Positions 18,176-33,004 of a stretch of 64,000 nt of DNA are shown here, piece by piece (positions within the stretch are counted from its first letter, which is position 1; each line of letters opens with the position of its first letter). The translations under genes were made by a program, and so were the position numbers. The notes beneath the pieces were generated by a model. That model was not told where the DNA came from, made no database searches, and saw nothing but the letters and a program-made list of their open reading frames with translations. The DNA comes from Silvibacterium bohemicum (GTDB lineage Bacteria > Acidobacteriota > Terriglobia > Terriglobales > Acidobacteriaceae). The stretch lies in contig NZ_LBHJ01000003.1 of NCBI RefSeq assembly GCF_001006305.1, positions 186,001 through 250,000 of the forward strand, given 5' to 3'.

Positions 18176-20773
18176 TCAAAACTCATAGTGCATTCCAAGG
18201 GTCACATTATTCGCGTGGAAGTTCCGGGGCGCGGTCTCACCGGCAGGCGAGATAGTTAAACCGGTCTGAAGACCGGCCAATGTAGGAGAGTTGCAGGGAA
18301 CAACAGGCGCCGGAGACGAAGGTGTGGGGTTGGAAGTGCTGCAGAAGGGTGCGCCGGAAGGACCACCCTCGCCGTAGCCATAGAAATTGTATTCTGCTCT
18401 CCAAATCCAACCCTTCCGAACCGTCCATGCAACTCGCACATAGGGAGACTGATACGTAGAGACCAGCGAGCCGTTGACATCCCGCGCGTCGTTGAAGAAC
18501 CGGCTACCGCTCACGGAGCTGATGCGATAGCCAATACTGGAGTGGATTCGGTTGATAGGGGAGATACTGAGAGCCACTGATCCGTACTGCGTAGGAGCAT
18601 CCATGAAGTCCCTGACCGGTCCGAACTCATAGTAGGTGGTCCCCCTTACCGTTGCGCCGGGGCACGCCGTACCACTGGCCGAAGCGGCGCCAGGCAGAGT
18701 GCTGGTGGCGGCGGCGTCATAGCAGATGTTGGTCGAGGCATAGACATCGCTATAGGCGTAATTGAAATCGAACCCATAGCGGTCATTCGGAACCAGCTGT
18801 CCACCTATGCTCACAACGCGGCTGTGATCGACGTGACCGATCGGCCCGGCGTAGGCGACATCGCCTGCTGCGACGGCGCTCTGGTTGTTGTTCGTGTTGT
18901 TATGCCGTTCCCGGTCGTTAAAGGCGCCAGTGAAAGTCATCCATGGCTTTGGCTTAAACATGGTATGCACTCTGTACTGCTGCGTTTGCCGTGCGTTGAC
19001 CGGGGTGAATGCGTTGTCGGCATAGAGCAGCTCGAGGCTGCCATTGACATCCCAACGGCTGCTGGGACGCAGGGCAACGTTGAAGATACCGCCGTTTTCA
19101 TGAATGGTGACTGTTCCGTTTGTATCTTCGCCCACAGCCAATGGCTCGCTATGAGGAATGCCCTGGCCGATGGTCTGCAAGCGGTAGCGGTAGGTGAGCG
19201 AGAGCGTGGCACCAGACCAGCCATCCCAGGTCGCCGTCAGGTCATTGGTCAGGAGCTTCTGGCCAAAGTAGTCAGGCAGCGGGGTACCGTTGGGGCTGCC
19301 CTCAACAGTGACAGTTCCAGGGGTCAGCGGACCTGAGTAGTTGATGGTTTCATTTGGATTCGCGGGAGTATTTGCAGTGATCCCTTTCGAGATGTTGGCC
19401 GTGCCGGGCTGCTGCACGTTGGAGTACTCAAACTGATCGGAGAAACTAACCTTCTCACTAGCATCCCAGTCGATGCCGTAGTCGACAGCGGTTACCTCCC
19501 GCCTGGCCGTCGCTTTGCCCGTAAAGGTCGTAGAGCGAATCGTCCCATCCAGGCCCTGGAAATTCTCGTAGTAATTGGGGAGGTTCATATTTGCGTTGGT
19601 GTAGCGAACATCCCCGTTCATAGCGACATTCTTAATGCTTGAGCTTTGGAACCGGAAAATCTCTGTGGGGTAGAGAATGCGCGTCGGCTGTGAGCGCAGG
19701 TAACTTGTCGCCACATTGCAAGCTGGATTGATGATTGGCCGCCCGCCTGGGGTTTGCGGCGCCGAGAGGATCGTGTAGGCCGTTGCGTTGGTGTATGCAC
19801 TGCCCATGCTGCCGGTATTGCAGGCGCTGATACCGTAAGGGGTCAGGCTGTCCCAGTTGCCAAGGGACACCGACGTTCCGTCCGCCTCCTGCGCCAGGAA
19901 GCTGCCCGGAGCCAGAGAAAAATAGGAGTCTTCCTTGATGTGGTCGACTACCTCTTCAAAGGTTAGCTTTGTGTTCCGGGCGGGCTTCCAGTCGATCGCT
20001 CCCACAAAATCGTCGGTGCTGTTGCGCTGATATTCCTCAAGAAGAGCGTCGTAGGCTCCGACAGATTCACCGGGACTCAGGCTCGGTCCTTCCATCACAT
20101 TCTGCGAATACCCCACACGATACGTCACTTTCGACAGCGGAAAGATCGTGAGGCTGGTGTCCGTCATACGACGTACTGTGTTGTACAGGAACGGCGATTG
20201 TTGAGCCTGCGGCCAAGCCAGCGAGCCCGTTGGCGCATTGGACGGCCCGATCGGAATTGACTGCCCCGAGGGGATGTTGGGGTTGCCCAGCAGGTTGTAA
20301 TCAAAGTACTGACGGTCGCGGCGGAACGTTCCTGAGAATTCATAGAGCTTCCCCTTGTAGAACTCCAGCGTGGAGAAGTTGTTCGGATCGCCGCCGAAGC
20401 CGGTGGTGAAGGCCTTGAGGGAATCGACAAGGGTCTGCTTTTTGCCCGGGAGCGCGTGCAACTCAAAGGTCTCGCCAAGCACGCGTGGCCCGGACTGCAT
20501 ATTGATCAGCGTGTCGTACATAGCCCCGCTGCCTGTGATGTTGGCCATGTGCCCACCCATCTCGACGGTCTCGTGGAGCGTATATCCATTCGGGACAACA
20601 GGCGCTGTACTCGGCGCCGGAACCGGAGCGACCGGCGTCGGAATCTGAGCGGCAGCTACGCCCGTGATCATTAGGAACATGGCGATTCCAGTGCCCTCGG
20701 CGATACGCCAGGCCACCGGTGGAGAGGGTCGTTGATTGGACAGCCAGGAAAACCAGCCTGTCTTCTTCATCAT
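18176..20773 (-). CDS. MtrB/PioB-like outer-membrane beta-barrel protein
   Basis: 865 residues. A long N-terminal leader with a hydrophobic core (GIAMFLMITGVAAAQ) and a proline-rich linker precede many alternating amphipathic strands with tyrosine-rich turns (VTYRVGYSQNVMEG, LSLTYRYRLQTIG, YGFDFNYAYSDVYAS, SSIGYRISSVSGSRFF). The chain ends in VTLGMHYEF, a final strand with C-terminal Phe that matches the outer-membrane assembly signal. Size, the MGGHMANITGSGAMYDTLINMQSGPRVL opening and the position 52 bp after a decaheme cytochrome gene fit the porin of porin-cytochrome conduits (MtrB, PioB). The N-terminal CXXC found in Shewanella MtrB is not seen. Role: insulating sheath for the decaheme protein. 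Confidence 0.75.
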   Translation of the reverse strand: MMKKTGWFSWLSNQRPSPPVAWRIAEGTGIAMFLMITGVAAAQIPTPVAPVPAPSTAPVVPNGYTLHETVEMGGHMANITGSGAMYDTLINMQSGPRVLGETFELHALPGKKQTLVDSLKAFTTGFGGDPNNFSTLEFYKGKLYEFSGTFRRDRQYFDYNLLGNPNIPSGQSIPIGPSNAPTGSLAWPQAQQSPFLYNTVRRMTDTSLTIFPLSKVTYRVGYSQNVMEGPSLSPGESVGAYDALLEEYQRNSTDDFVGAIDWKPARNTKLTFEEVVDHIKEDSYFSLAPGSFLAQEADGTSVSLGNWDSLTPYGISACNTGSMGSAYTNATAYTILSAPQTPGGRPIINPACNVATSYLRSQPTRILYPTEIFRFQSSSIKNVAMNGDVRYTNANMNLPNYYENFQGLDGTIRSTTFTGKATARREVTAVDYGIDWDASEKVSFSDQFEYSNVQQPGTANISKGITANTPANPNETINYSGPLTPGTVTVEGSPNGTPLPDYFGQKLLTNDLTATWDGWSGATLSLTYRYRLQTIGQGIPHSEPLAVGEDTNGTVTIHENGGIFNVALRPSSRWDVNGSLELLYADNAFTPVNARQTQQYRVHTMFKPKPWMTFTGAFNDRERHNNTNNNQSAVAAGDVAYAGPIGHVDHSRVVSIGGQLVPNDRYGFDFNYAYSDVYASTNICYDAAATSTLPGAASASGTACPGATVRGTTYYEFGPVRDFMDAPTQYGSVALSISPINRIHSSIGYRISSVSGSRFFNDARDVNGSLVSTYQSPYVRVAWTVRKGWIWRAEYNFYGYGEGGPSGAPFCSTSNPTPSSPAPVVPCNSPTLAGLQTGLTISPAGETAPRNFHANNVTLGMHYEF

Positions 20774-20825
20774 GAAGCCTCACTTGAAAAACTCCGCCAC
20801 ATTGAAACCTTTGGACCCGCTTCCG

Positions 20826-21752
20826 TTATTTGAGGAATGCCTGATTGAGATTGGACCCGTGGATCATGGTGTGGCAGCTTGTGCAGGGCGTCAGCTCCGA
20901 CGAACCAGCGTTCATGGTGTGAAACGTGCCGCCAGCGACCGGACTATGGCACTGGTTGCACAACGTGTTGATACTCGGCATGTTCAGTAGCCGGGCATTT
21001 TGAGAACCGTGCGGAGTATGGCATCCCAGGCATCCCACCGCCTTGACCGCAGCGTGCTCATAGACAAAAGGCCCGCGCGTTTCCACATGGCACTTGGTGC
21101 AAATCCTGTTCTGGTCGACCGTGGACTTCAGGTTGTTTCTCCCGAAGGTGCCATGCACGTCGTGGCAGTCACTGCACTTGACCGTGCCTTCGTCCACCGG
21201 GTGGTGGAAAGGCATAGCGAACGCGCCCTTCACGTCGGTGTGGCAGGTATAGCAGAGCGTCGGCTGCGAAACTTTGAGCAGGCTCGCTTCGTTCTCAACG
21301 CCGTGGATGCTATGGCAACTGAGGCAGCTCAGGCCGGCCTTCGCGTGAGGAGAGCGATTGAAATTGGGGTGCGCCCCCGCGTGACAGCCAAGGCAGGTGG
21401 CATCAATCTCCTTGGTAGACGCCGCCCCGAACCGGAAGATCTTCGTTACGTCCCCACCAGAGCTGACGTGCGCCAAGCCTGGTCCATGGCAGCTTTCGCA
21501 AGTGACTCCTTTGCCGTCGTGCATCAACGCGAGACGCGAATGAGGGTTCGTGGGAAAACTCTTGGCGACGTCTGCGTGGCAGGTCATGCAGGTATCGGAG
21601 CCAACGTAACTGGACGCTGGAGCACTGGTCGAGGTTGGGTTCTGAGCTGTGGTCCCTTGCTGCCCGCTACCGCTCGCAGCATTCACCCACCCTGTTTTCC
21701 AGAGTCCGGGCAGCAACGCAATCAGCGCCACGCAAAAGAGCACACGTTTCAT
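20826..21752 (-). CDS. Decaheme c-type cytochrome, MtrA/DmsE-like
   Basis: 308 residues with a signal peptide (VLFCVALIALLPGLWKTGWVNA). Ten CXXCH sites can be counted in order: CMTCH, CESCH, CLGCH, CLSCH, CYTCH, CSDCH, CTKCH, CLGCH, CNQCH, CTSCH. Spacings such as HSRLALMHDGKGVTCESCHGPGLAHV are typical of the DmsE/MtrA group, and the length is close to that of MtrA. It is first in the operon and followed by the MtrB-like porin, so it probably threads the barrel and carries electrons over the outer membrane. No separate outer-surface cytochrome (MtrC/OmcA type) is present, as in the Pio system. A CRP-type palindrome lies 117 bp upstream. Confidence 0.85.
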   Translation of the reverse strand: MKRVLFCVALIALLPGLWKTGWVNAASGSGQQGTTAQNPTSTSAPASSYVGSDTCMTCHADVAKSFPTNPHSRLALMHDGKGVTCESCHGPGLAHVSSGGDVTKIFRFGAASTKEIDATCLGCHAGAHPNFNRSPHAKAGLSCLSCHSIHGVENEASLLKVSQPTLCYTCHTDVKGAFAMPFHHPVDEGTVKCSDCHDVHGTFGRNNLKSTVDQNRICTKCHVETRGPFVYEHAAVKAVGCLGCHTPHGSQNARLLNMPSINTLCNQCHSPVAGGTFHTMNAGSSELTPCTSCHTMIHGSNLNQAFLK

Positions 21753-22510: not shown

Positions 22511-23286
22511 TTTGTTCTCCTTCTTCTGTGATCAACCGGTATGGGTCAGCATCTCTGTTGTGAGCTTGCGAGGCGCTGGCAGTCCACCCAAGAGCTTTTG
22601 GGCGAAGGCCCAATCAAGTAAAGGTAGAAACAGGTTCTCCATCCCGTCTGGCCAATATTGCTCAGGTTGGAGTTCGATTGCCTCAGCAACCGAATCTGTC
22701 GCCAGTGCTGCCAATCTTTCACGAATGCCCAGGAGTGATGCCCCCGAAGCAGCTTGCTTCCTCTGAAACGTGCAGGGAATCGGGTACGCAATGCGTCCGA
22801 CGACAATTCTGAGAGATGCTCAGAAACTCCACAGAGCGAGAATGCGCCCGAGGCTCTCATTGAGCCGCGACATTTACCCATCGTTCCTCATTCTGGGGAA
22901 GTAGCCGGTATCTCAGGAGCCCGATAACCAAGAATGAACGCGAAATTGGAAGGCTTTCGCGGGCACCGTCCTGTTTCAGAATTGATGTGGCCGGAGAATT
23001 ATCGGTAGCTTCGGATCATCGCCCGGACTGCCCGCAAATAGACGACCGTTCGGCATTGTGTTCCGGTAGTAGATTGCGCAGAACAAAGTTCAGTCGAGAC
23101 TTATGAACTAGGATGTGGCCGTTCTAGTCGATCAAGCTGAGCTTGCGAAATCGAGCTGGTCGATCAGCTCCTTAAGGGTAGAATCGAACTGTTCAATTGT
23201 GGTCATCTTTTAGGAAATGTTTTCAATATCGTTCGATTGTAGTAATGCCAAAATGGGGTCTGTGAAGCGCGTTAGGGATCTCATCG
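22511..23286. other. Long intergenic stretch with possible decayed coding DNA
   Basis: The minus-strand frame about 22532-22808 reads like protein (IVVGRIAYPIPCTF, then LEQPEQYW-type text and LLDWAFAQKLLGGLPAP) but has a stop instead of a start at its head and no ribosome site, so it could be the tail of a lost gene that I cannot name. From 22880 to 23286 I see nothing convincing. Confidence 0.3.
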
Positions 23287-23355
23287 ATGAGGCAACCGGC
23301 AAGAAGTGTCATCGCGAAAGACGCCCACACTCAAGGCGTGGCGTACGAAGAAAGA

Positions 23356-24060
23356 ATGGAACCGATGCTCCCTCGACCAAAGAAAACACGTGATTTGGCG
23401 CTCAGCCTGGTTGCTTCAGAGGCCGATCCAAGTACGGCCTCCAGGCAAACACAGCCTGCAACTGTACGCGTCTATGAGAGACTGCGCCGACAGCTCAGCG
23501 CACCCGTGGGAGTTGATGGTTTTCAGGCGCTCGCTTCTCGTGCATTGGCTCTCGCCAAGTCTGAATCTCCCCAGCTCAGCGCGGTGCAGCTGACCGCAAA
23601 TGGAGACTTGCGCGGTCTCGACGAGGTTGAATCCCAAACAGACTCGGATGAGGCAGGCGAGGCCGGAATCGTTCTGATTGCGCAGTTACTCGGACTGTTT
23701 CTTACCTTCCTTGGCGAGGCGACAACGCTGCGTTTGATCGAAGATTTACGCCTTCAGGCCGACGTCAGGACGGAGCCGGACGCGACCACAGCGGGCACGA
23801 CAGGCTCTGCGCCTGATGGAACGGCAATGGCTGCGGCTTTCGAGGACCTTTTGGTAGAGATTGATCGGTTGAGGAGCGTGAGCGAACGCATTGAAAGCCT
23901 GGTGGATAAACATCCCGGCATGGAAGATGGACTCGTGAGTGTTGCGGGAAACATTCGCAATATTGCTACGGTTTTAGACGTTTTCACACTCATCCGAAGC
24001 AAGGCTGGCGACTCAGAGGAAGACGCTCCGAACCCACAAGCGAAAGGTTATGTGAATTGA
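23356..24060 (+). CDS. KaiC-module unknown protein A (paralogue of protein B)
   Basis: About 234 residues from the ATG at 23356 (an ATG at 23287 is also in frame). The core VRVYERLRRQL, then GFQALASRALALAKSESPQLSAVQLTANGDLRGL and GIVLIAQLLGLFLTFLGEATTLRLIEDL, is repeated in the next gene with about half the residues the same. The last segment is a hydrophobic helix that could touch the membrane. Unlike its partner, this protein has a C-terminal helical extension (AFEDLLVEIDRLRSVSERIESLVDKHPGMEDG). I do not recognise the family. Position just ahead of a kaiC-like gene and a histidine kinase suggests a regulatory or receptor part of that module. Confidence 0.6.
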   Translation: MEPMLPRPKKTRDLALSLVASEADPSTASRQTQPATVRVYERLRRQLSAPVGVDGFQALASRALALAKSESPQLSAVQLTANGDLRGLDEVESQTDSDEAGEAGIVLIAQLLGLFLTFLGEATTLRLIEDLRLQADVRTEPDATTAGTTGSAPDGTAMAAAFEDLLVEIDRLRSVSERIESLVDKHPGMEDGLVSVAGNIRNIATVLDVFTLIRSKAGDSEEDAPNPQAKGYVN

Positions 24061-24226
24061 ATTCCGCCGGCGCTCCACCCAGATCCGAAATGTTTGGATT
24101 TGGACCTTGATGTCGAACAACTTAACTGCGGATCGTTTACGAAAAGAGACTATCGTCGACCTGATCCTTCTGCGAAGCGTGTGGCAGATATCGGAATCTT
24201 CCGCTTGGAGCGATGCGGCGTTGAAC

Positions 24227-24667
24227 ATGACTACTCTGCCGGAAATGCGAGATTTGGCTCAACGGCTTCTTACTTACGAAGCCAATGCGGGCAACACCTC
24301 CGAGCCAGTGGAGTCTACAACCCTCCGCGTCTATGAAAAGCTGCGCCAGAGTCTTGGAGAATTGGCTGGAGCTGCCGGTTTTCAGTCGCTAGCCTCTCGT
24401 GCTTTGACGCTGGCGAGATCGGAAGTTCCCAGCCTTAGCGCGGTGCAGGTGGCGGCGGATGGAAATCTGCAGGGGATGAGTGCGATTGGGCTTCCGACAG
24501 ACATCGAGAAGGATCGGGTTCACGAGGGGGGAGTCATCCTCATTTCTCGCTTACTCGGGCTGCTTCTTATCTTTCTTGGCGAAGCATTAACGATGAACCT
24601 GGTACGAGATGTGTGGCCGGATGCAGCATCTGATGATGGCAATTCGCAGGACGGGAGAAAAGCGTGA
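24227..24667 (+). CDS. KaiC-module unknown protein B
   Basis: 146 residues if started at the ATG at 24227, which aligns with the start of protein A; ATG 24110 would add 39 residues not shared with A. Shared core: LRVYEKLRQSL, GFQSLASRALTLARSEVPSLSAVQVAADGNLQGM, then GGVILISRLLGLLLIFLGEALTMNLVRDVW. It lacks the coiled C-terminal tail of A and so may be the simpler partner of a heteromer. Its stop overlaps the GTG start of the KaiC-like gene (GTGA), so the two are translated together. No known motif. Confidence 0.6.
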   Translation: MTTLPEMRDLAQRLLTYEANAGNTSEPVESTTLRVYEKLRQSLGELAGAAGFQSLASRALTLARSEVPSLSAVQVAADGNLQGMSAIGLPTDIEKDRVHEGGVILISRLLGLLLIFLGEALTMNLVRDVWPDAASDDGNSQDGRKA

Positions 24668-26178
24668 GCGCTCAAGACAAAGTGAAGATAAATAAACTAC
24701 CGACTGGAGTTTCAGGGCTCGATGAAATAGTGGGCGGTGGTCTCCCGGAATTCTCGTTCAACATCATCGCGGGGGCCCCCGGCAGCGGGAAGACGACGCT
24801 GGCACACCAGTTCGTGTTTGCCAATGCCACCCCGGAGCGTCCTGCTCTCTACTTCACTGTACTCGGCGAATCCGCCATAAAAATGCTGCGATACCAGCAA
24901 CAGTACACGTTCTTCGATCCGGCCAAGCTGCCGGACTCCATCCGCTTTATCAATCTGAGCCAAGTTGTCCTGGAAAAGGACCTGGGCGCGGTTTTGGAGG
25001 AGATTACCAAGGAAGTTGAAAAGGCTAACCCTGCTGTCGTCGTCGTTGACTCCTTTCGCACCATGGTGCGGAAACCGGAAAGTGACATGGACCTGCAATC
25101 CTTCATTCAACGGTTGGCTCTGTTTCTGGCAAGTTGGCAGGCTACAACATTTCTGATCGGCGAATATGCAGAGGAGGAACTTCGTGATAATCCCATCTTT
25201 ACCGTCGCCGATGGGCTGTTCTGGTTACGCCAGACTGCGGAACGAAATTCCATTGTGCGGAAGTTGCAGATCATCAAGCTGCGTGGACAGGCTTCCGTGC
25301 CCGGGTTGCACACGTTCCGCATAACTGAAGCCGGTATCCAGGCTTTCTCGCGCACGTTTGGGTTGACCGCGCGCGCGAAAAATCCCGTCGGCCAGCGTCG
25401 CCTTTCCTTCGGTATTCCGGAGTTGGACAAGATGCTGGGTGGGGGCGTGCGCGAAGGCGACAGCGTCCTGGTAGCTGGGTCTTCGGGAACCGGGAAATCC
25501 GTCCTTGCAACCCAATTCATTGCTGAAGGCATACGGGAGGGGGAACCGGGAATCGTAGCTGTCTTCGAAGAACGTCCGCAAGCCTATGCGGAGCGGGCCG
25601 CCAGTTTAGGGCTGGATCTGGAGACACCGCAGAAAGACGGGAAACTCTCTATCCTCTATCTCCGCCCCTTGGATCTCTCGGTGGACGAAACCATGCAGTC
25701 GATTCTCGACGCTGTACAGAAGATTGGCGCCAAGCGGCTGGTGATCGATTCCCTGGCTGGCTTTGAGATGGCTCTGTCGCCCGGCTTCCGCGCCGACTTT
25801 CGCGAATCGCTCTACCGGATGATCTTCGCCCTGACGGGAATCGGGGTGACGATTCTAAGCACGGTTGAAGTGGATGAGTCATTCACCGAATTCCCGTTCA
25901 GTACCTACTCAATCTCGTTCCTTTGCGATGACATCATCCGGCTGCGGTACGTATCCATCGATGGCCAGCTTCGCAAGATCATGGTGGTTATCAAGATGCG
26001 CGGTGGCAATCATGCGAAGGATATTCGCGAATATGAAATCACATCCAAGGGTGTCGTCATCCTTGGTAAACGCCTCATAAACTATCAGGGTCTTATCACC
26101 GGGATTCCTGTGCATTCGGACCGATCCGCCCAAGAGGAAGATCCTTCCCATGATTCGGAAAGCAAGAACCAAACTTAG
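24664..26178 (+). CDS. KaiC-like double-domain RecA-family ATPase
   Basis: 504 residues with two RecA-like KaiC domains. Domain I: Walker A GAPGSGKTT (37-45), Walker B VVVVDS (Asp129). Domain II: Walker A GSSGTGKS (272-279), Walker B LVIDS (Asp362). The paired catalytic glutamates are present in domain II (FEE, Glu302-Glu303), but domain I has LGE (67-69), so only domain II keeps the normal arrangement. Aligned by eye with cyanobacterial KaiC, Ser418 falls at the Ser431 autophosphorylation site while the Thr432 position is Phe419. No kaiA or kaiB is near. GTG start, coupled to protein B; the 3' end overlaps the histidine kinase gene by 29 bp. Likely a signalling ATPase and not a clock. Confidence 0.85.
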   Translation: MSAQDKVKINKLPTGVSGLDEIVGGGLPEFSFNIIAGAPGSGKTTLAHQFVFANATPERPALYFTVLGESAIKMLRYQQQYTFFDPAKLPDSIRFINLSQVVLEKDLGAVLEEITKEVEKANPAVVVVDSFRTMVRKPESDMDLQSFIQRLALFLASWQATTFLIGEYAEEELRDNPIFTVADGLFWLRQTAERNSIVRKLQIIKLRGQASVPGLHTFRITEAGIQAFSRTFGLTARAKNPVGQRRLSFGIPELDKMLGGGVREGDSVLVAGSSGTGKSVLATQFIAEGIREGEPGIVAVFEERPQAYAERAASLGLDLETPQKDGKLSILYLRPLDLSVDETMQSILDAVQKIGAKRLVIDSLAGFEMALSPGFRADFRESLYRMIFALTGIGVTILSTVEVDESFTEFPFSTYSISFLCDDIIRLRYVSIDGQLRKIMVVIKMRGGNHAKDIREYEITSKGVVILGKRLINYQGLITGIPVHSDRSAQEEDPSHDSESKNQT

Positions 26179-27484
26179 GGAATCATCTGAGAATCTAGAG
26201 ATCGACGCTAGCTTTCGCCTTGATTGGAATTCGGATGCGTTAAATATCGACCGTTTAATTTTGGACACTTTGCCCCTACCGATGGCTGCATTGGAGGGGT
26301 CAGATCACATCCTGCGCTACGCGAATCCCGCCTTCTGCCGGCTGGTCTCGAAGACTGAAGCTGAATTGATGGGGAAGCCTTTCGTAGAGGTCGTGCCCCG
26401 GGAGGGCTGTCTTGCGTTGCTGAACCTCGTATATGACACGGGCGAAGTCAGAATCCAGATTGAACCGAAAGAGACAGAAGCTCATTCCGCGCGCTGGTCG
26501 TATACGATGTGGCCCATCCTTGATGCAGATGATCACCCGGTGGGAGTCATGATGCAAGTGACGGAGACTACACAATTCCATCAGCGGGCGATCGCCGTGA
26601 ATGAGCAACTGCTGTTGTCGGGAGTGCGCCAGCATGAACTCAGAGAAACGGCAGAGAAGCTGAACGCGCAACTACAACTTGAAATCGCCGAGCGGAAGAA
26701 GATGGAGCGTGCCCTGGTGACCAGCGAAAAGCTGGCGGTGACGGCGAGATTCGCCTTAACCATGGCGCATGAGATTAACAATCCTTTAGAAGCAATGACG
26801 AATCTGGTATATCTGCTGGCTGCTCTCCAAACCAGTCCGGAAGCGGAGGCTTACATCGCTACAATAGAAGATCAGTTACAGGGTCTGAGTCGCATTGCTA
26901 CCCAGGCGCTCAAGTTTCACCGCGATGCCAACAAGCCCGAAGTATTCAAATTGAATGCGGTGCTCCGCGAGGTATCGGACTTTTACCGCCCGCAGTCCGA
27001 GAGGCAAGGAATTGTTCTTCATCAACGATTAGAGACGGATGGGGCCATTTCAGCCTTCAGAAGCGAAATTGTACAGGTCATTACGAACCTGTTGCTCAAT
27101 GCGCTTGATGCCACGCCCGCTGGCGGACAGGTCATCATTCATCTATATTCTGCTCCACGCTGGCTCTGTGACATCCATGCTTCATGCGGTTATTGCCTCT
27201 CGATTGCTGATTCTGGAAGTGGTATTGCGCCGCAAGATCGAGCACGGATTTATCAGCCTTTCTTCACCACAAAAGGGGAACGAGGAACGGGTCTCGGCTT
27301 ATGGGTAAGCGCGGGTATCCTCGACCGCATTGGTGGTTCGATACGTGTCTGGAGCACACGTCGACCGGGTCGCTCGGGCACATGTTTCTCACTCTTCCTG
27401 CCCGTCGAGCAAGCCATCTTTACACCGCTTCGCCGCCGCCGCAAAGAGTCGACGGAAGTTCAAGGCGCTCGCCGAGACCGGTGA
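26150..27484 (+). CDS. PAS-domain sensor histidine kinase, soluble
   Basis: 444 residues without membrane segments. A PAS domain covers about residues 35-150 (LPLPMAALEGSDHILRYANPAFCRLVSKTEAELMG). A coiled linker follows (LRETAEKLNAQLQLEIAERKKME), then the dimerisation helix with the phospho-acceptor in TMAHEINNPLEAMTN, and the ATPase domain: N box NLLLNALDA, G1 ADSGSGIAP, F box PFFTTKGERGTGLGLWVSAG. No receiver domain or response-regulator gene is adjacent, so its partner is elsewhere. The overlap with the KaiC-like gene argues that KaiC state and kinase act in one pathway, as SasA and KaiC do in cyanobacteria. Confidence 0.85.
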   Translation: MIRKARTKLRESSENLEIDASFRLDWNSDALNIDRLILDTLPLPMAALEGSDHILRYANPAFCRLVSKTEAELMGKPFVEVVPREGCLALLNLVYDTGEVRIQIEPKETEAHSARWSYTMWPILDADDHPVGVMMQVTETTQFHQRAIAVNEQLLLSGVRQHELRETAEKLNAQLQLEIAERKKMERALVTSEKLAVTARFALTMAHEINNPLEAMTNLVYLLAALQTSPEAEAYIATIEDQLQGLSRIATQALKFHRDANKPEVFKLNAVLREVSDFYRPQSERQGIVLHQRLETDGAISAFRSEIVQVITNLLLNALDATPAGGQVIIHLYSAPRWLCDIHASCGYCLSIADSGSGIAPQDRARIYQPFFTTKGERGTGLGLWVSAGILDRIGGSIRVWSTRRPGRSGTCFSLFLPVEQAIFTPLRRRRKESTEVQGARRDR

Positions 27485-27553
27485 AAGAGTAGCAGGAAAC
27501 TGGGAGGATGAGTGACCTCATCTGCCGGATTTTATAGAGCGACCCTTGAACAT

Positions 27554-29833
27554 TCATCGCCAGGAGACGTCTCCCAGGTGACCAGCAATCGCGGCCTGCC
27601 CAAGACTTAGGCCGCCATCGCCGCAAGGGACCTGAGACTGTGTGTAAACCTTTAGACCTTCCGTTCTCAGCAGGCGATCGAGGCCAACTGTGAGGTGCGT
27701 ATTCAGAAAGCACCCTCCACTGAGACAGACATCCTGGATGCCGGTACTCAGAGAAATCCTGTGAATGACGTCCGCGAGCGTAGATAGAAGACCCCGATGA
27801 AACCGCCGGCTGATGGTTGCCTGCGAGACGCCATGCTTTAGGTCAGCGAGAATTTGTTCAAAAAGCGATGCTGTCCCAATCGCGCGGCACTCGCCCTCCT
27901 GGACGAAAAAACAGTACTCCCCGTCCTCCATCCTGTCCTGGCAGCAGGCCTCCAGTTCGATCGCCGCCTGAGCTTCAAAGCTCACCTCTGTGCGCAGACC
28001 GATCAGGGCAGCAACAGCATCAAATAACCGGCCGCAACTTGATGTGAGCGGAGACCGAATGCGTTGAACCGCCATGCGCCGCACCATTTCGAGATGACCG
28101 GCCGGTATCGAACCGAGGAACGGCAGGCCCTCTTCCAGGCAGTTCCCACCCGCGTGATCGAGATACGCAACCGCCATGCGCCATGGCTCTCGAATGGCCT
28201 GCGCTCCTCCCGGCATCGGCACGTAATTCAGATGCGCGGCCCGCTCGAAACCCCGGAAGTCTGCGATCAGGATCTCCCCGCCCCAAACCTGGCCGTCCGT
28301 GCCGTAGCCGGTGCCATCCAGCGCTACGCCGATGACCCGCCCTGCAAGCTGATTCTCTGCCATGCAACTGGCGATGTGCGCGTGGTGGTGCTGCACGGGG
28401 ATGGTTCGGACGTCCTGCTGTTGGGTAGCCCACTGGGTCGAGAGATAGCCTGGATGAAGATCGTGGGCAATCAACGATGGCTTCCATTCGAGGATGTTTT
28501 CGAGGTGGGCGATGGACTCCTGAAAGAATTGGTAGGCTGCCAGGCTCTCAAGATCGCCGATATGTTGTCCCACAAAGGCGTGTTCTCCCTTGGTCATGCA
28601 AACGGCACTTTTCAACTCTCCGCCGACAGCGAGCACCCCGGGAAGCCCACGTTCGATGGTGACCGGCACGGGAACAAAACCGCGAGAGCGGCGCAGCATC
28701 GTAGTGCGCCCCTGGAAGTTGCGGACCACCGAGTCATCGCAGCGCAGGAGGATCTCGCGATCGTGGGAGAGAAAATAGTCGGCGATGCCGCGCAGCCGAT
28801 CGATGGCCTCGTCATTCTCGATGCAGATTGGCTCCTCGCACAGGTTGGCGCTGGTCATGACCAGTGCCGCGAAGCTCCCCCGCGCAAATAGCAAGTGTTG
28901 TATTGGGGTGTACGGGAGAAAGATCCCGAGGTCGGGACTTCGTGGAGCGATGCTCTCTGGAAGACCTGAGCAGCTCCTGGCTCTCATCAACACAATGGGC
29001 CGCTGGGGCGATTCGAGCAATGCCCGGTCCGCTTCGCTGACAACGCACAAGCTGTCCGCTTGAGCAACGTCCGGAACCATCACCGCCAGCGGCTTTTCAA
29101 AGCGTCTTTTGCATCGCCGCAGCTCTTCGACAGCAGCAGACTGGGTCGCATCCACACAGAGATGAAATCCTCCGAGCCCCTTGATGGCGACGATCCAACC
29201 AGCCTTGAGAAAGTCAATTGTCTGGGCGAGAGGATCGCCGCCGACAGCGTTTCCCTCCGCATCCAGGAAGGCGAGCTGCGGGCCGCAATTCCAGCAGGCA
29301 TTCGGCTGCGCATGAAAACGGCGACTGAATGGATCGTCATACTCGGCTTGGCATTGAGCGCACATGCCAAATGCCGCCATCGAAGTATTGGGGCGGTCGT
29401 AGGGAATGCGTTTGAGAATCGTAAATCGAGGTCCGCAGTTGGTGCAGTTGATGAATGGATAACCATAACGGCGGTCGGCGGGATCGAGTAATTCGCGCAA
29501 ACAGTCCGCACAGGTGGCGATGTCTGGAGCGATCAGTGTATCCGCGTGCTCGCCGGCTTCGCTGCGATGGATCGTGAAATCTGTGCCCGGCAGGCATGCA
29601 ACCTCTTCGACAGAAAGCGACGCGATTCTCGCGAGCGGCGGGGCTTCGGACTCAAGGCTCCGCAGAAACCTCCCGAGTGTGTCGTCCGGACCTTGTACTT
29701 CAATCGTGACACCTGCGACGGTGTTCCTCACATGCCCGCTGAGCCCGTAACGATAGGCGAGGCGATAGACGTGCGGACGAAATCCCACGCCCTGCACGAT
29801 GCCGGAGACCGAAATCCGTTTGCGCGCCTTCAT
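27554..29833 (-). CDS. hypF: [NiFe]-hydrogenase maturation carbamoyltransferase HypF
   Basis: 759 residues from the ATG at 29833 (a GTG at 29875 is in frame but overlaps hypB). Order of domains: acylphosphatase-like (ISVSGIVQGVGFRPHVYRLA), zinc fingers (CADCLRELLDP, CTNCGPRFTI, CAQCQAEYDD, CWNCGP), a YrdC-like domain (AVEELRRCKRRFEKPLAVM) and a Kae1-like domain with VQHHHAHIASCMAEN and VALDGTGYGTDGQVWGGE. HypF makes carbamoyl-AMP from carbamoyl phosphate and loads HypE, the source of the active-site cyanides. Last gene of the large-subunit operon. Its 3' end exists as a decayed copy at about 22 kb. Confidence 0.95.
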   Translation of the reverse strand: MKARKRISVSGIVQGVGFRPHVYRLAYRYGLSGHVRNTVAGVTIEVQGPDDTLGRFLRSLESEAPPLARIASLSVEEVACLPGTDFTIHRSEAGEHADTLIAPDIATCADCLRELLDPADRRYGYPFINCTNCGPRFTILKRIPYDRPNTSMAAFGMCAQCQAEYDDPFSRRFHAQPNACWNCGPQLAFLDAEGNAVGGDPLAQTIDFLKAGWIVAIKGLGGFHLCVDATQSAAVEELRRCKRRFEKPLAVMVPDVAQADSLCVVSEADRALLESPQRPIVLMRARSCSGLPESIAPRSPDLGIFLPYTPIQHLLFARGSFAALVMTSANLCEEPICIENDEAIDRLRGIADYFLSHDREILLRCDDSVVRNFQGRTTMLRRSRGFVPVPVTIERGLPGVLAVGGELKSAVCMTKGEHAFVGQHIGDLESLAAYQFFQESIAHLENILEWKPSLIAHDLHPGYLSTQWATQQQDVRTIPVQHHHAHIASCMAENQLAGRVIGVALDGTGYGTDGQVWGGEILIADFRGFERAAHLNYVPMPGGAQAIREPWRMAVAYLDHAGGNCLEEGLPFLGSIPAGHLEMVRRMAVQRIRSPLTSSCGRLFDAVAALIGLRTEVSFEAQAAIELEACCQDRMEDGEYCFFVQEGECRAIGTASLFEQILADLKHGVSQATISRRFHRGLLSTLADVIHRISLSTGIQDVCLSGGCFLNTHLTVGLDRLLRTEGLKVYTQSQVPCGDGGLSLGQAAIAGHLGDVSWR

Positions 29834-29834
29834 G

Positions 29835-30515
29835 CTAAACCCGTGCGGTGGATGCGCGCCGCAACCGTGCTTCACGGCGGCGCGACAGCCACGCCTGCCA
29901 CCCGTCGAATCCCTGGCCGGTTGTGCAGGATAGCTCTACAATCTCGATGCCCGGGTGAACAAGTCTGGCGTTGGCCCGCGCTTGTTCCATGTTGAACGGA
30001 ACGTGCGGCAGCAGGTCGATCTTCGTCAATACGAGAAGCTCGGATTTGGCAAAGATCGATGGATACTTGAGAGGCTTGTCGTCTCCTTCGGTTACGCTCA
30101 AAAGGACGACCTTTGTTTCTTCTCCCAGGTCATAGCTCGATGGGCAAACCAGATTCCCCACATTTTCGATGAACAGCAAATCGATCTCATCAAGGGACCA
30201 GCGTTCGAGCGCGCGCTCAATCATCCTGCCATCGAGATGGCAGACTCCGCCGGTTGTGATCTGCTGCACCGGAAATCCATAGCGGGCCAAGCGCTTCGCG
30301 TCATTCTCGGTTTGCAGATCTCCCGTCAGCACAGCCACTCTTTCCTCTGGCCGGAAGCCGCCGAGAGTCTCTTCGAGCAGCGTGGTCTTACCCGAGCCGG
30401 GCGAGCTGATGAGGTTCAGGCAAAGCGTGCCCTGCTCTTCAAAACGATCTCGGAGGGACGCGGCAATTCGCTGATTCTCACTGAGCACTTTCTTCTCAAC
30501 CGGGATGACAGTCAT
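29835..30515 (-). CDS. hypB: Hydrogenase nickel-insertion GTPase HypB
   Basis: 226 residues from the ATG at 30515, which overlaps the hypA stop by ATGA. P-loop LISSPGSGKTTLLEETL, the metal-site GGVCHLDGRMIERAL, switch region LLFIENVGNLVCPSSYDLGE and the NKxD-like guanine motif LTKIDLLPHV are all in place. The N-terminal nickel-binding CxxCGC and the histidine-rich nickel-storage tail of some HypB proteins are absent, so it acts only as the GTPase that drives nickel transfer with HypA. Confidence 0.95.
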   Translation of the reverse strand: MTVIPVEKKVLSENQRIAASLRDRFEEQGTLCLNLISSPGSGKTTLLEETLGGFRPEERVAVLTGDLQTENDAKRLARYGFPVQQITTGGVCHLDGRMIERALERWSLDEIDLLFIENVGNLVCPSSYDLGEETKVVLLSVTEGDDKPLKYPSIFAKSELLVLTKIDLLPHVPFNMEQARANARLVHPGIEIVELSCTTGQGFDGWQAWLSRRREARLRRASTARV

Positions 30516-30859
30516 GCTTCCTCCAATTCGACATAGGTCAGATCCAACTCCTCGCCGCCCACCAGCGCAATCGTTTCCGACGCGCAGAGGGGACAAGGCT
30601 CGCTGTAGACGGCGGTTTCAAACTGATGATCGCAATTGAGGCATCGATTGCGCCGTGGGCAGCTTTGAATTTCAAAGTCGACCGTATCCAGTTCTGTGCC
30701 CTGCGTGAGCGCGGTAAACGCGAAGCGCAGCGCGTCGCTATCCACTCCCGCGAGCGTCCCGATACGAATGCCGATGCGGACAAGCTTCGAGCCTGTCCGG
30801 CGCGCGGCCTCTGCCTGTCCGGCTTCGATAATCGCGTTGGCAATCCCGATTTCATGCAT
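30512..30859 (-). CDS. hypA: Hydrogenase nickel chaperone HypA
   Basis: 115 residues beginning MHEIGIANAI, where His2 (with the Met1 amine) is the nickel ligand of the family. The zinc site is formed by two CXXC pairs in RCLNCDHQF and PCPLCASE. Start ATG at 30859, just 4 bp after the hypE stop; longer frames run into hypE. It delivers nickel to the large-subunit precursor together with HypB. Confidence 0.94.
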   Translation of the reverse strand: MHEIGIANAIIEAGQAEAARRTGSKLVRIGIRIGTLAGVDSDALRFAFTALTQGTELDTVDFEIQSCPRRNRCLNCDHQFETAVYSEPCPLCASETIALVGGEELDLTYVELEEA

Positions 30860-30863
30860 GGCG

Positions 30864-31904
30864 TCAGCAGATCCGAGGCAGAGGATCGTTTGCGAGCATG
30901 TCCACGATCCTGGTAGCCCCCAGGGCAGTGCGCATCGTGAGCAGGCCGGAGTTCGCGCTGGTGATGCTGCCAATCCTGCTTGCGCCCGCGCCCTGCGGAT
31001 GTCGTTGCATTGCAGCTAAAAGGCGCTCGGCATCTTCAGGAGCACAAATCGCGAGAAGCTTCCCCTCATTCGCAATGTAAAGAGGATCGAGCCCCAGCAG
31101 CTCGCAGGCTCCGCGCACCTCCTCCCGTAGGGGAATGGCCTTCTCTTCCAGCTGGATGCCGACTCCGGAGGTTTGGGCGATTTCGTTGCAGGAGCTGGCG
31201 ACGCCGCCCCGGGTGGGATCCCGCATGCAGCGAATCGTCGCACCTGTCGCCAATAGATCGGCGACGAGCGAGTGCAACGGCGCGGTATCACTCACAATGT
31301 CCGCTTCGAACGATAGCCCCTCGCGTTCCGCGAGAATCGCGATCCCATGATCGCCAATCGGTCCACTGAGCAGCACGACATCTCCGGGCCGAGCCTGATC
31401 GGCTGAAAGATGCAGGTGGGTATCCACGATCCCGATGCCGGCTGTGTTGATAAACATCCCGTCGCAGCTGCCCTTTTCGACAACCTTCGTATCGCCCGTA
31501 ACAATCTGCACGCTGGCGCGTTGGGCAGCCTCCCGCATTGACGAGACAATCCGTCGCAGGCATTCGAGCGGAAAGCCTTCTTCGAGAATGAACGCGGCAC
31601 TCAGAAAAAGCGGAGTCGCGCCCCCGACCGCAAGATCATTCACCGTACCGTGGACGGCGAGCGAGCCGATGTCGCCGCCGCGAAAGAAGAGCGGTTTGAC
31701 TACGAAGGAATCGGTAGTGAATGCGAGCCTGGCGCCGCCGATCTCGAGGAAAGCCTGATCATCGGCTCTACCGAGGATCGAGTTGCCGAAGGCGGGCAGG
31801 AAAACGTTCCGGAACAGGTCGGCCGAGAGCCTGCCGCCGCCGCCGTGCCCCATCAGAATCGTCTCCGTGTCGAAAACAGGAAGAGGACAGGTAAGAGGGT
31901 TCAT
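30864..31904 (-). CDS. hypE: Hydrogenase maturation protein HypE
   Basis: 346 residues from the ATG at 31904, overlapping the hypD stop by ATGA. It is a PurM/ThiL-fold ATP-binding protein: MGHGGGGRLSADLFRNVF, AFTTDSFVVKPLFFRGGDIG, VTGDTKVVEKG, then MRDPTRGGVASSCNEIA and the invariant C-terminal DPLPRIC. The final cysteine receives the carbamoyl group from HypF and is dehydrated to a thiocyanate, which supplies CN to the iron. Confidence 0.95.
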   Translation of the reverse strand: MNPLTCPLPVFDTETILMGHGGGGRLSADLFRNVFLPAFGNSILGRADDQAFLEIGGARLAFTTDSFVVKPLFFRGGDIGSLAVHGTVNDLAVGGATPLFLSAAFILEEGFPLECLRRIVSSMREAAQRASVQIVTGDTKVVEKGSCDGMFINTAGIGIVDTHLHLSADQARPGDVVLLSGPIGDHGIAILAEREGLSFEADIVSDTAPLHSLVADLLATGATIRCMRDPTRGGVASSCNEIAQTSGVGIQLEEKAIPLREEVRGACELLGLDPLYIANEGKLLAICAPEDAERLLAAMQRHPQGAGASRIGSITSANSGLLTMRTALGATRIVDMLANDPLPRIC

Positions 31905-33004
31905 TGGATGGTCACCAAACTGTGCCGGCGGTACTGGTAGTAGGCAGAACAGGCTCCTTCGGAAGAAACCATGGGCGCGCCGAGCGGGCTCTCCGGTGTG
32001 CAGACACTTCCGAATGCGGAACAGTCCGTGGGCTTCTGCAGACCCTTGAGTATCTCGGCGCTGATGCAGGCAGAGGGCGCTTCCGCCTGCGGAACTTGCA
32101 AGTCGAAAACTTTGTCCGCATCCCAGGCTGCGAACTTCCCCCGCAGCCGTAGGCCGCTCTGTGGGATTTCTCCCAGACCGCGCCATGACTGATCGGCGAC
32201 CTCAAACACTTCGCGGAGAATGCGCTGCGCTTCGAGATTGCCACGGTAGCTTACGGAGCGCGTGTATTCGTTGGCGAACTCGGCGCGACCCTCCTCCAGT
32301 TGGGTGACCAATCCGAGGATGGCCTGCAACAGGTCGACAGGTTCAAATCCGCCGACGACAATCGGCACATGGAACTCCTGGACCAGGTCTTCGTAGTCCG
32401 AGCAGCCCACGACCGTGCAGACATGTCCCGGAGCGATAAAGCCCTGTACCCGGTTATCGGGCGAAGCCGCCAGGGCACGGATGGCCGGAGGTACAAGAAC
32501 GTGGGAAGCGAGCAGAAAGAAATTGTCCAGCCCCTCGCGGTGCGCCTGATACACCGCCATGGCATTGGCCGGGGCTGTAGTCTCGAATCCGACCGCTAGA
32601 AAGACTACTTTGCGATTCGAGTTGAGACGGGCAATCCTCAGAGCATCGAGCGGAGAGTAGACCATGCGGACATCGGCGCCGCGGGCCTTTGCGGAGAAAA
32701 GGTCTATCTTTGTGCCGGGCACCCGCAGCAGGTCTCCGTACGAGACCAGGGTCACGTCGTCGCGTTGCGCCAGTTCAATAGCGCGATCCAGAATGCTCGC
32801 CGGCGTTACGCAAACGGGGCAGCCTGGACCATGCACCAGCTCGATCGATGACGGGAGCAGCTCATCGAGCCCGTAGCGCATGATGGTGTGAGTCTGACCG
32901 CCGCATATCTCCATCAGCACCCACGGGTGCGCCACTTTGCGTTCAATCTCTCTTAGCAGACGCGCGGCCAGCCGGCCATCGCGGTATTCATCCAGATATT
33001 TCAT
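31901..33004 (-). CDS. hypD: Fe-(CN)2CO scaffold protein HypD
   Basis: 367 residues. Conserved HypD elements: ICGGQTHTIMRYGL, VHGPGCPVCVTP, VFLAVGFETTAPANA, APGHVCTVVG with the following FHVPIVVGGFEPVD, and the C-terminal cysteine cluster region. HypD carries a [4Fe-4S] cluster and, with HypC, holds the iron while its CN and CO ligands are attached. Start ATG at 33004 overlaps the hypC stop (ATGA). Confidence 0.95.
   Translation of the reverse strand: MKYLDEYRDGRLAARLLREIERKVAHPWVLMEICGGQTHTIMRYGLDELLPSSIELVHGPGCPVCVTPASILDRAIELAQRDDVTLVSYGDLLRVPGTKIDLFSAKARGADVRMVYSPLDALRIARLNSNRKVVFLAVGFETTAPANAMAVYQAHREGLDNFFLLASHVLVPPAIRALAASPDNRVQGFIAPGHVCTVVGCSDYEDLVQEFHVPIVVGGFEPVDLLQAILGLVTQLEEGRAEFANEYTRSVSYRGNLEAQRILREVFEVADQSWRGLGEIPQSGLRLRGKFAAWDADKVFDLQVPQAEAPSACISAEILKGLQKPTDCSAFGSVCTPESPLGAPMVSSEGACSAYYQYRRHSLVTIQ

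Follow-up and report, generated by a model that had tools for sequence, protein, structure and literature searches.

An all-helical protein family as putative partner of one branch of KaiC-like ATPases, seen from a locus of Silvibacterium bohemicum

A stretch of 64,000 nucleotides (nt) from Silvibacterium bohemicum (contig NZ_LBHJ01000003.1, positions 186,001 to 250,000; hereafter, the window) holds four consecutive genes, encoding two paralogous proteins (A and B), a double-domain KaiC-like ATPase and a PAS histidine kinase. The original prediction, made from the letters alone, took them for a four-part signalling device in which the twin proteins replace KaiA and KaiB. Many bacteria carry KaiC-like ATPases in the absence of KaiA or KaiB, and the question raised by this locus is which of its genes form a conserved unit, and what the small proteins could do for the ATPase. 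What recurs across loci is B together with the KaiC-like ATPase rather than the four-part device, A and the kinase being optional additions. B seems to be the dedicated helical partner of one ATPase branch, the pair probably working as a ring-plus-partner signalling switch, a reading held here with moderate confidence. A near-obligate, once-fused protein that marks one branch offers a direct handle on KaiC-like regulation, in two small genes. The features of the locus are the following (ORF, open reading frame):

23356..24060, + strand: A, the long twin (ORF; core at about 23380-23772 plus a C-terminal domain)
23815..24006, + strand: C-terminal helical-hairpin domain of A (matched by profile A8; stand-alone ORFs in other Acidobacteriota)
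24227..24667, + strand: B, the short twin, all-helical (ORF; ATG at 24227 backed by homologues)
24664..26178, + strand: double-domain KaiC-like ATPase (GTG start; PF06745 in two stretches)
26150..27484, + strand: soluble PAS-HisKA-HATPase_c histidine kinase (ORF; Pfam domains)

The conserved pair of B and ATPase

A and B are adjacent paralogues (46% identity over 146 aa, E value 9e-25), sharing the helix LLGL(F/L)L(T/I)FLGEA that had been pointed out originally, and the family gives just these two matches in its own genome (E 0.01). The ORF of A is open from 23287 (257 aa), and its in-frame ATG at 23356 fits the homologues better; that of B is open from a TTG at 24107 (186 aa), and the ATG at 24227 gives 146 aa. 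The GTG start of the ATPase overlaps the stop codon of B by 4 nt, while 166 nt separate the stop codon of A from the likely ATG of B. Thus, the proposed translational coupling of both twins to the ATPase stands for B and falls for A.

Neither A nor B has a significant match in Pfam, NCBIfam, PHROGs or PADLOC, and 14 diverse members of alignment A4 match no family at E 0.01, in agreement with the earlier description of an unrecognised family. Sub-threshold matches to DASH_Duo1 (A, E 0.21) and phrog_36349 (B, E 0.12), as well as the renin receptor, the best PDB sequence match of profile A2 (E 0.32), were taken as chance. A role in anti-phage defence was also rejected, with A, B and the kinase matching none of the PADLOC-DB families at E 0.1; the ATPase finds P-loop-type matches only, the best being mad8 (E 2.3e-9, 35 bits). 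The profile libraries tested hold neither the B family nor the C-terminal domain of A, and no description of the B family was found in the accessible literature on KaiC systems, which leaves out most subscription papers.

Fifty-one B-type genes were gathered from Acidobacteriota, Myxococcota and alpha- and betaproteobacterial plasmids, with copies dropped (L041, L049 and L052, copies of L015, L017 and L018). In 46 of the 51, the ATPase lies directly downstream on the same strand, and four others end at most 112 nt from a contig end. The possibility that such proteins are widespread without KaiC-like neighbours is thus answered in favour of B. The overlap is of exactly 4 nt in 22 of the 46 pairs with the ORF starts used, and the ATPase frame is split in L016, L040, L057 and L141, where the first piece adjoins B. 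The loci were found via the family itself, and some plasmids via the ATPase, so that the set is not a random sample.

B matched seven of 61 related genomes, its own included; four of the others hold an A-B pair and two give weak matches (L008 in G022, E 5.5e-4 with two stops inside; L009 in G059, E 0.005). Across a draw of 297 genomes from the phylum, the A/B profile matched at least nine, among them G311, which carries only the C-terminal domain. A scan of genome contigs with one peptide pattern, which misses divergent members, returned 26 loci, 25 of them acidobacterial by title (one from Candidatus Sulfotelmatobacter) plus L058, titled Deltaproteobacteria and placed under Myxococcota by the tree tool. 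At least four of 235 genomes of the phylum of L058 match, the L058 genome included. Pseudomonadota were covered by plasmids only, among which four records matched the B of L067, a more distant member of the family. The same B-ATPase pair is found on Paracoccus and Caballeronia plasmids and in genomes of the L058 phylum. Up to 10 candidates per genome were scored with the A/B profile, 16 in the L058 phylum and five with the ATPase, and the tallies are lower bounds.

The reverse search, a cleaner test with the ATPase as the query, matched at least 20 of the 297 genomes at E 1e-50. The ATPase is at least 49% identical in 11 of them (own included), and B lies directly upstream in all 11. No B was found at any of 11 loci with ATPases of 30-32% identity, within the flank of about 1.5 kb searched (best profile E 4.6). 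On plasmids, ATPase matches at E 1e-60 comprise four records, all four with B (the ATPase frame of L073 is broken). Furthermore, one ORF of 671 aa in G306 encodes both B and the ATPase, with B first and a short linker; the B domain there reaches an i-Evalue of 5.3e-25 with a profile built without that row. In a FastTree phylogeny, a branch supported at 0.999 has all B-linked ATPases except L147 on the same side, and the distances of B and ATPase correlate with r 0.93 over 38 pairs, a value reached in none of 2000 permutations. Tree and distance test both used 38 of the 46 ATPases, those of at least 370 aa.

As a control for circularity, profile A5, built without plasmid and distant rows, picked out, at a threshold of E 0.01, the 13 expected B proteins and nothing else among 1089 ORFs of 13 such loci, the weakest being L073 (0.0021) and the fused L145 (0.0016). 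The B of L069 was first chosen by its position before the ATPase, and its kinship to B was then seen at E 1e-30. Judged by sequence, B represents a real partner family of a KaiC-like subfamily, well conserved and without a name in the profile libraries, for which we infer the mechanism set out below.

The near-obligate, overlapping upstream position and the one fusion would fit equally well with B being a co-translational assembly factor or chaperone, needed for the assembly or stability of the ATPase ring and with no signalling role of its own, and no ligand-binding or catalytic domain can be recognised in B. This explanation is nevertheless considered unlikely, as A was duplicated from B and holds an extra domain, which suggests a regulatory use, and as the 11 distant KaiC-like loci do without such a gene within about 1.5 kb.

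Three genomes hold two B-ATPase loci each: G593 (L142 and L143), G623 (L140 and L141, the latter with the split ATPase frame) and G351 (L082 and L147, the second copy being divergent). On two betaproteobacterial plasmids, B is found near genes annotated as CheB or CheR (L072:5019-5408 and L073:4561-4995).

An ATPase related to clock KaiC

The description of the third gene as a double-domain KaiC-like ATPase that overlaps a soluble PAS histidine kinase proved accurate. The ATPase matches PF06745 in two stretches with 268.9 bits (cutoff 26.6), KaiC chains are the solved structures closest to it in sequence, neither Walker A motif is disrupted, and the overlap with the kinase is 29 nt. However, it misses the cutoffs of circ_KaiC (TIGR02655; 180.5 vs 546.25) and PRK09302 (NF006799; 271.9 vs 408). 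KaiC carries a catalytic Glu pair, according to the accessible text of PMC5520375; at this position, the ATPase shows a single Glu in CI (VLGE) and EE or EQ in CII. In the window's branch, the positions of the Ser431/Thr432 pair of KaiC (numbering as in the available portion of PMC3164672) hold Ser-Phe; L067 and two Caballeronia rows have Ala-Phe, the second site being Phe in 13 of 13 B-linked rows of alignment A6. In its own genome, the ATPase query matches only itself (E 1e-5).

The reported lack of kaiA and kaiB holds for this genome, where neither has a match at E 0.001, with the S. elongatus control positive for both. KaiA is without a match in all 18 genomes tested, and KaiB is absent at the Pfam cutoff from 15 of them, passing it in three (G014, G351 and G623) and giving weak matches in two. 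The Pfam models of KaiA and KaiB do not match A or B even at E 1. A true KaiC clock is rejected on account of the missed KaiC cutoffs, the degenerate phosphosites and the absence of any KaiA or KaiB match.

Another reading is a timer or hourglass of the KaiC type, with B and A standing in for KaiA and KaiB and the kinase acting like SasA. It draws on this lack of KaiA and KaiB and on the kinase gene adjoining that of the ATPase; the accessible part of PMC3164672 proposes that KaiC-histidine kinase pairs lacking KaiB serve as hourglass timers. With Phe as the second phosphosite, Ala as the first in one clade, and a circ_KaiC cutoff missed by far, such a timer is very improbable.

Compared with known systems, the ATPase shares its double-domain architecture with KaiC from the cyanobacterial KaiABC clock, whose output also runs via a histidine kinase (SasA; PMC3164672, accessible text). 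It differs from that clock in the Ser-Phe phosphosites, the lack of a KaiA or KaiB match, the extra partner B and the score below the cutoff. As far as the accessible text of PMC3164672 goes, this study of the Ramlibacter tataouinensis genome distinguishes three contexts of prokaryotic KaiC genes, one of them being KaiC with a specific kinase and without KaiB. The third context comprises poorly conserved sites, SF and AF included, near signalling genes, and it is the one that the window's ATPase resembles. In the KaiC-kinase modules without KaiB, a kinase or GGDEF protein is likewise encoded after the KaiC-like gene; however, the same accessible text describes no upstream partner family, hypothetical proteins appearing only as HP in a supplementary figure legend.

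Archaeal KaiC-like signalling hubs also tie KaiC-family ATPases to two-component parts, although they are archaeal, have other architectures and come with no mention of a B family in the available portion of PMC5847659. The KaiBC systems of Rhodobacter and Rhodopseudomonas are similar in having KaiC without KaiA, but R. sphaeroides keeps KaiB (PMC6627678, as far as accessible), whose model matches neither A nor B of the window. The A-B-ATPase module is best placed within KaiC-based signalling and is not a new category.

The twin A and the signalling genes downstream

All 32 A genes gathered come from Acidobacteriota genomes or contigs. In a tree of A cores, from which the short L053_A was left out, 29 of 31 group in a single clade (100/100), while L016 and L143 stay unplaced. 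These sequences show A to be a duplicate of B to which a C-terminal helical hairpin was added. In tandem loci, A immediately precedes B. Elsewhere it is encoded on the opposite strand (L061, L140 and, 9.5 kb away, L060) or follows the kinase (L139); L055 holds B and the ATPase with 9.9 kb of upstream sequence and no A.

The profile of the C-terminal domain, with the G311 copies included, matches 26 of 150 related genomes, eight of which hold a full-length A. The other 18 carry the domain only as short ORFs, of about 43-90 aa by the starts used (for instance L065:7288-7494 and L066:7482-7688), with no core or ATPase within flanks of up to 1.5 kb. Two of these stand-alone domains are doubtful (G608, with two stops inside, and G605, of 45 aa, E 7e-6), and those of G612 and G032 lie at contig ends. 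The stand-alone domain has no significant match in Pfam (L065) or NCBIfam (L129), and an MLD match of the L065 domain (E 0.24) was taken as chance.

Crp-like regulators are found near several A-B-ATPase loci (L036:4158-4958, L016:17363-18133, L040:8878-9648, L047:1478-2158 and L142:440-1228) and near one stand-alone C-terminal-domain ORF (L066:8699-9376); their identity comes from Pfam for L036 and from sequence resemblance for the others.

The kinase of the window passes the Pfam cutoffs for HisKA (28.8 bits, cutoff 26.9) and HATPase_c (72.7, cutoff 26.4), a PAS domain is matched too, and the stretch MAHEINNP of its translation is taken here as the H-box. Thirty-one loci entered the search for this kinase (tblastn, E 1e-5), of which 19 are tandem A-B-ATPase loci (the window, L015-L018, L036, L037, L039, L040, L042, L044, L046-L048, L053, L056, L059, L141 and L142), the others being cut by contig ends or without tandem A. 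The kinase is present in two of the 19, the window and L048. It was not simply relocated: four genomes with such loci (G014, G039, G047 and G049) give no match at E 1e-40, and the best match of G593 in this search covers residues 176-422 only. As the conserved unit, the four-part device does not survive these results, with A seen only in Acidobacteriota and sometimes on the other strand or 9.5 kb off, and the kinase missing from 17 of the 19 tandem loci.

Nineteen further B-ATPase loci lack a tandem A and leave room for a next gene (L058, L060-L064, L067, L069-L071, L139, L140 and L144-L150). In 18 of them, this gene encodes a kinase or a GGDEF protein: a histidine or hybrid kinase in 15, and a GGDEF/diguanylate-cyclase protein in three (L070, L071 and L145). 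In L150, it is a GAF-domain ORF cut by the contig end. The calls were made only by similarity to the window's kinase for L062, L063, L064 and L146 and by annotation for L069-L071. L055 (contig end), L072 and, with a broken ATPase, L057 and L073 were left out; in L057, B stands at the contig start and no kinase was found. This pattern suggests that the older form was B, ATPase and a signalling enzyme, and that the window keeps this older form plus A. The contrast between tandem and non-tandem loci may reflect one lineage rather than many events.

Structure, proposed mechanism and genomic neighbours

AlphaFold 2 (AF2) models B as a long helix, a small hairpin and a long helix (predicted local distance difference test, pLDDT, 77; predicted template modelling score, pTM, 0.70), and A with C-terminal helices at 177-208 and 213-240 (pLDDT 78, pTM 0.55). 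With its medium-confidence model, B finds nothing in the PDB or among viral models at E 0.001 (Foldseek), and its best Z in VIA is 4.6; the C-terminal hairpin of A reaches Z up to 8.5, within the range common for helical bundles.

The shared hydrophobic segment has a median Kyte-Doolittle value of 1.94 over 19 residues and reaches transmembrane (TM) scale, 1.6 or more, in 49 of 58 sequences. B could, on this basis and in line with the membrane contact proposed originally, anchor the KaiC-like ring to the membrane by this helix, with the soluble kinase or A reading membrane-linked signals. In most members, however, the segment includes R, Q or H as a polar or charged residue together with a G-E pair, and it falls below TM-scale in nine of the 58, with values of 1.17-1.55 in L067 and four of the five proteobacterial plasmid copies; AF2 places it, with medium confidence, in one long helix of a helical protein. 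Membrane anchoring is hence regarded as unlikely, though the segment would be compatible with either membrane contact or none.

In the signalling switch favoured here, the ATPase would form a ring in a physical complex with B. The pair would read a cellular state, either ATP/ADP or a ligand of B, and pass it to the signalling enzyme encoded next door. This enzyme would be the PAS histidine kinase in the window; at other loci, a diguanylate cyclase, an HWE kinase or hybrid kinases would fill the role. The likeliest place for B is at the N-terminal (CI) face of the ring, given that B precedes CI, with a short linker, in the one fused gene. As two-site KaiC phosphorylation is lacking, we expect a switch driven by the ATPase rather than an oscillator of the KaiABC type. 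A and B may join in mixed complexes, and in most Acidobacteriota with tandem A-B-ATPase loci A may act as an output or input arm in lieu of the local kinase. The pairing and overlap of B and ATPase, the one fusion, the ATPase subfamily, the duplication, the added C-terminal domain and the degenerate phosphosites are seen in the sequences themselves; the complex, the ring, the CI-side contact, the ATPase switch, the output through the kinase and the role of A are inferences from them.

Several points weigh against this reading. First of all, the absence of the kinase from 17 of the 19 tandem loci means that output through the kinase is not general. Second, B occurs without an ATPase in L072, a Polaromonas plasmid and the sole true exception among the 51 genes, and the ATPase of L147 lies outside the B-linked clade. 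The fusion is known from one genome only and might stem from a frame error. Moreover, joint inheritance by itself would make the distances agree, so that their agreement is no demonstration of contact, and most B genes were found through the family in few related lineages, so that the 51 are not independent events.

It is possible that B takes the place of KaiA and KaiB. A broader proposal, which is tentative and more doubtful than the switch itself, is that B founds a new family of KaiC-ring regulators in their place, acting as a switch or short timer via nucleotide-dependent CI binding rather than two-site phosphorylation in three phyla, with interchangeable outputs (kinase, hybrid kinase or diguanylate cyclase) and with A, which brings an extra domain, as a second, duplicated partner in Acidobacteriota.

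Around the locus, the search for consensus promoter sites in 22900-27700 gave none and is uninformative. Directly downstream of the kinase, in convergent orientation, lie the hydrogenase maturation genes hypF, hypB, hypE and hypD (27554-33004, - strand). The window also encodes a decaheme c-type cytochrome of the DmsE family (257 bits, cutoff 192.2), within 18176-21752 on the - strand; adjoining it is an 865-aa protein with no NCBIfam match and a resemblance to an outer-membrane beta-barrel partner.

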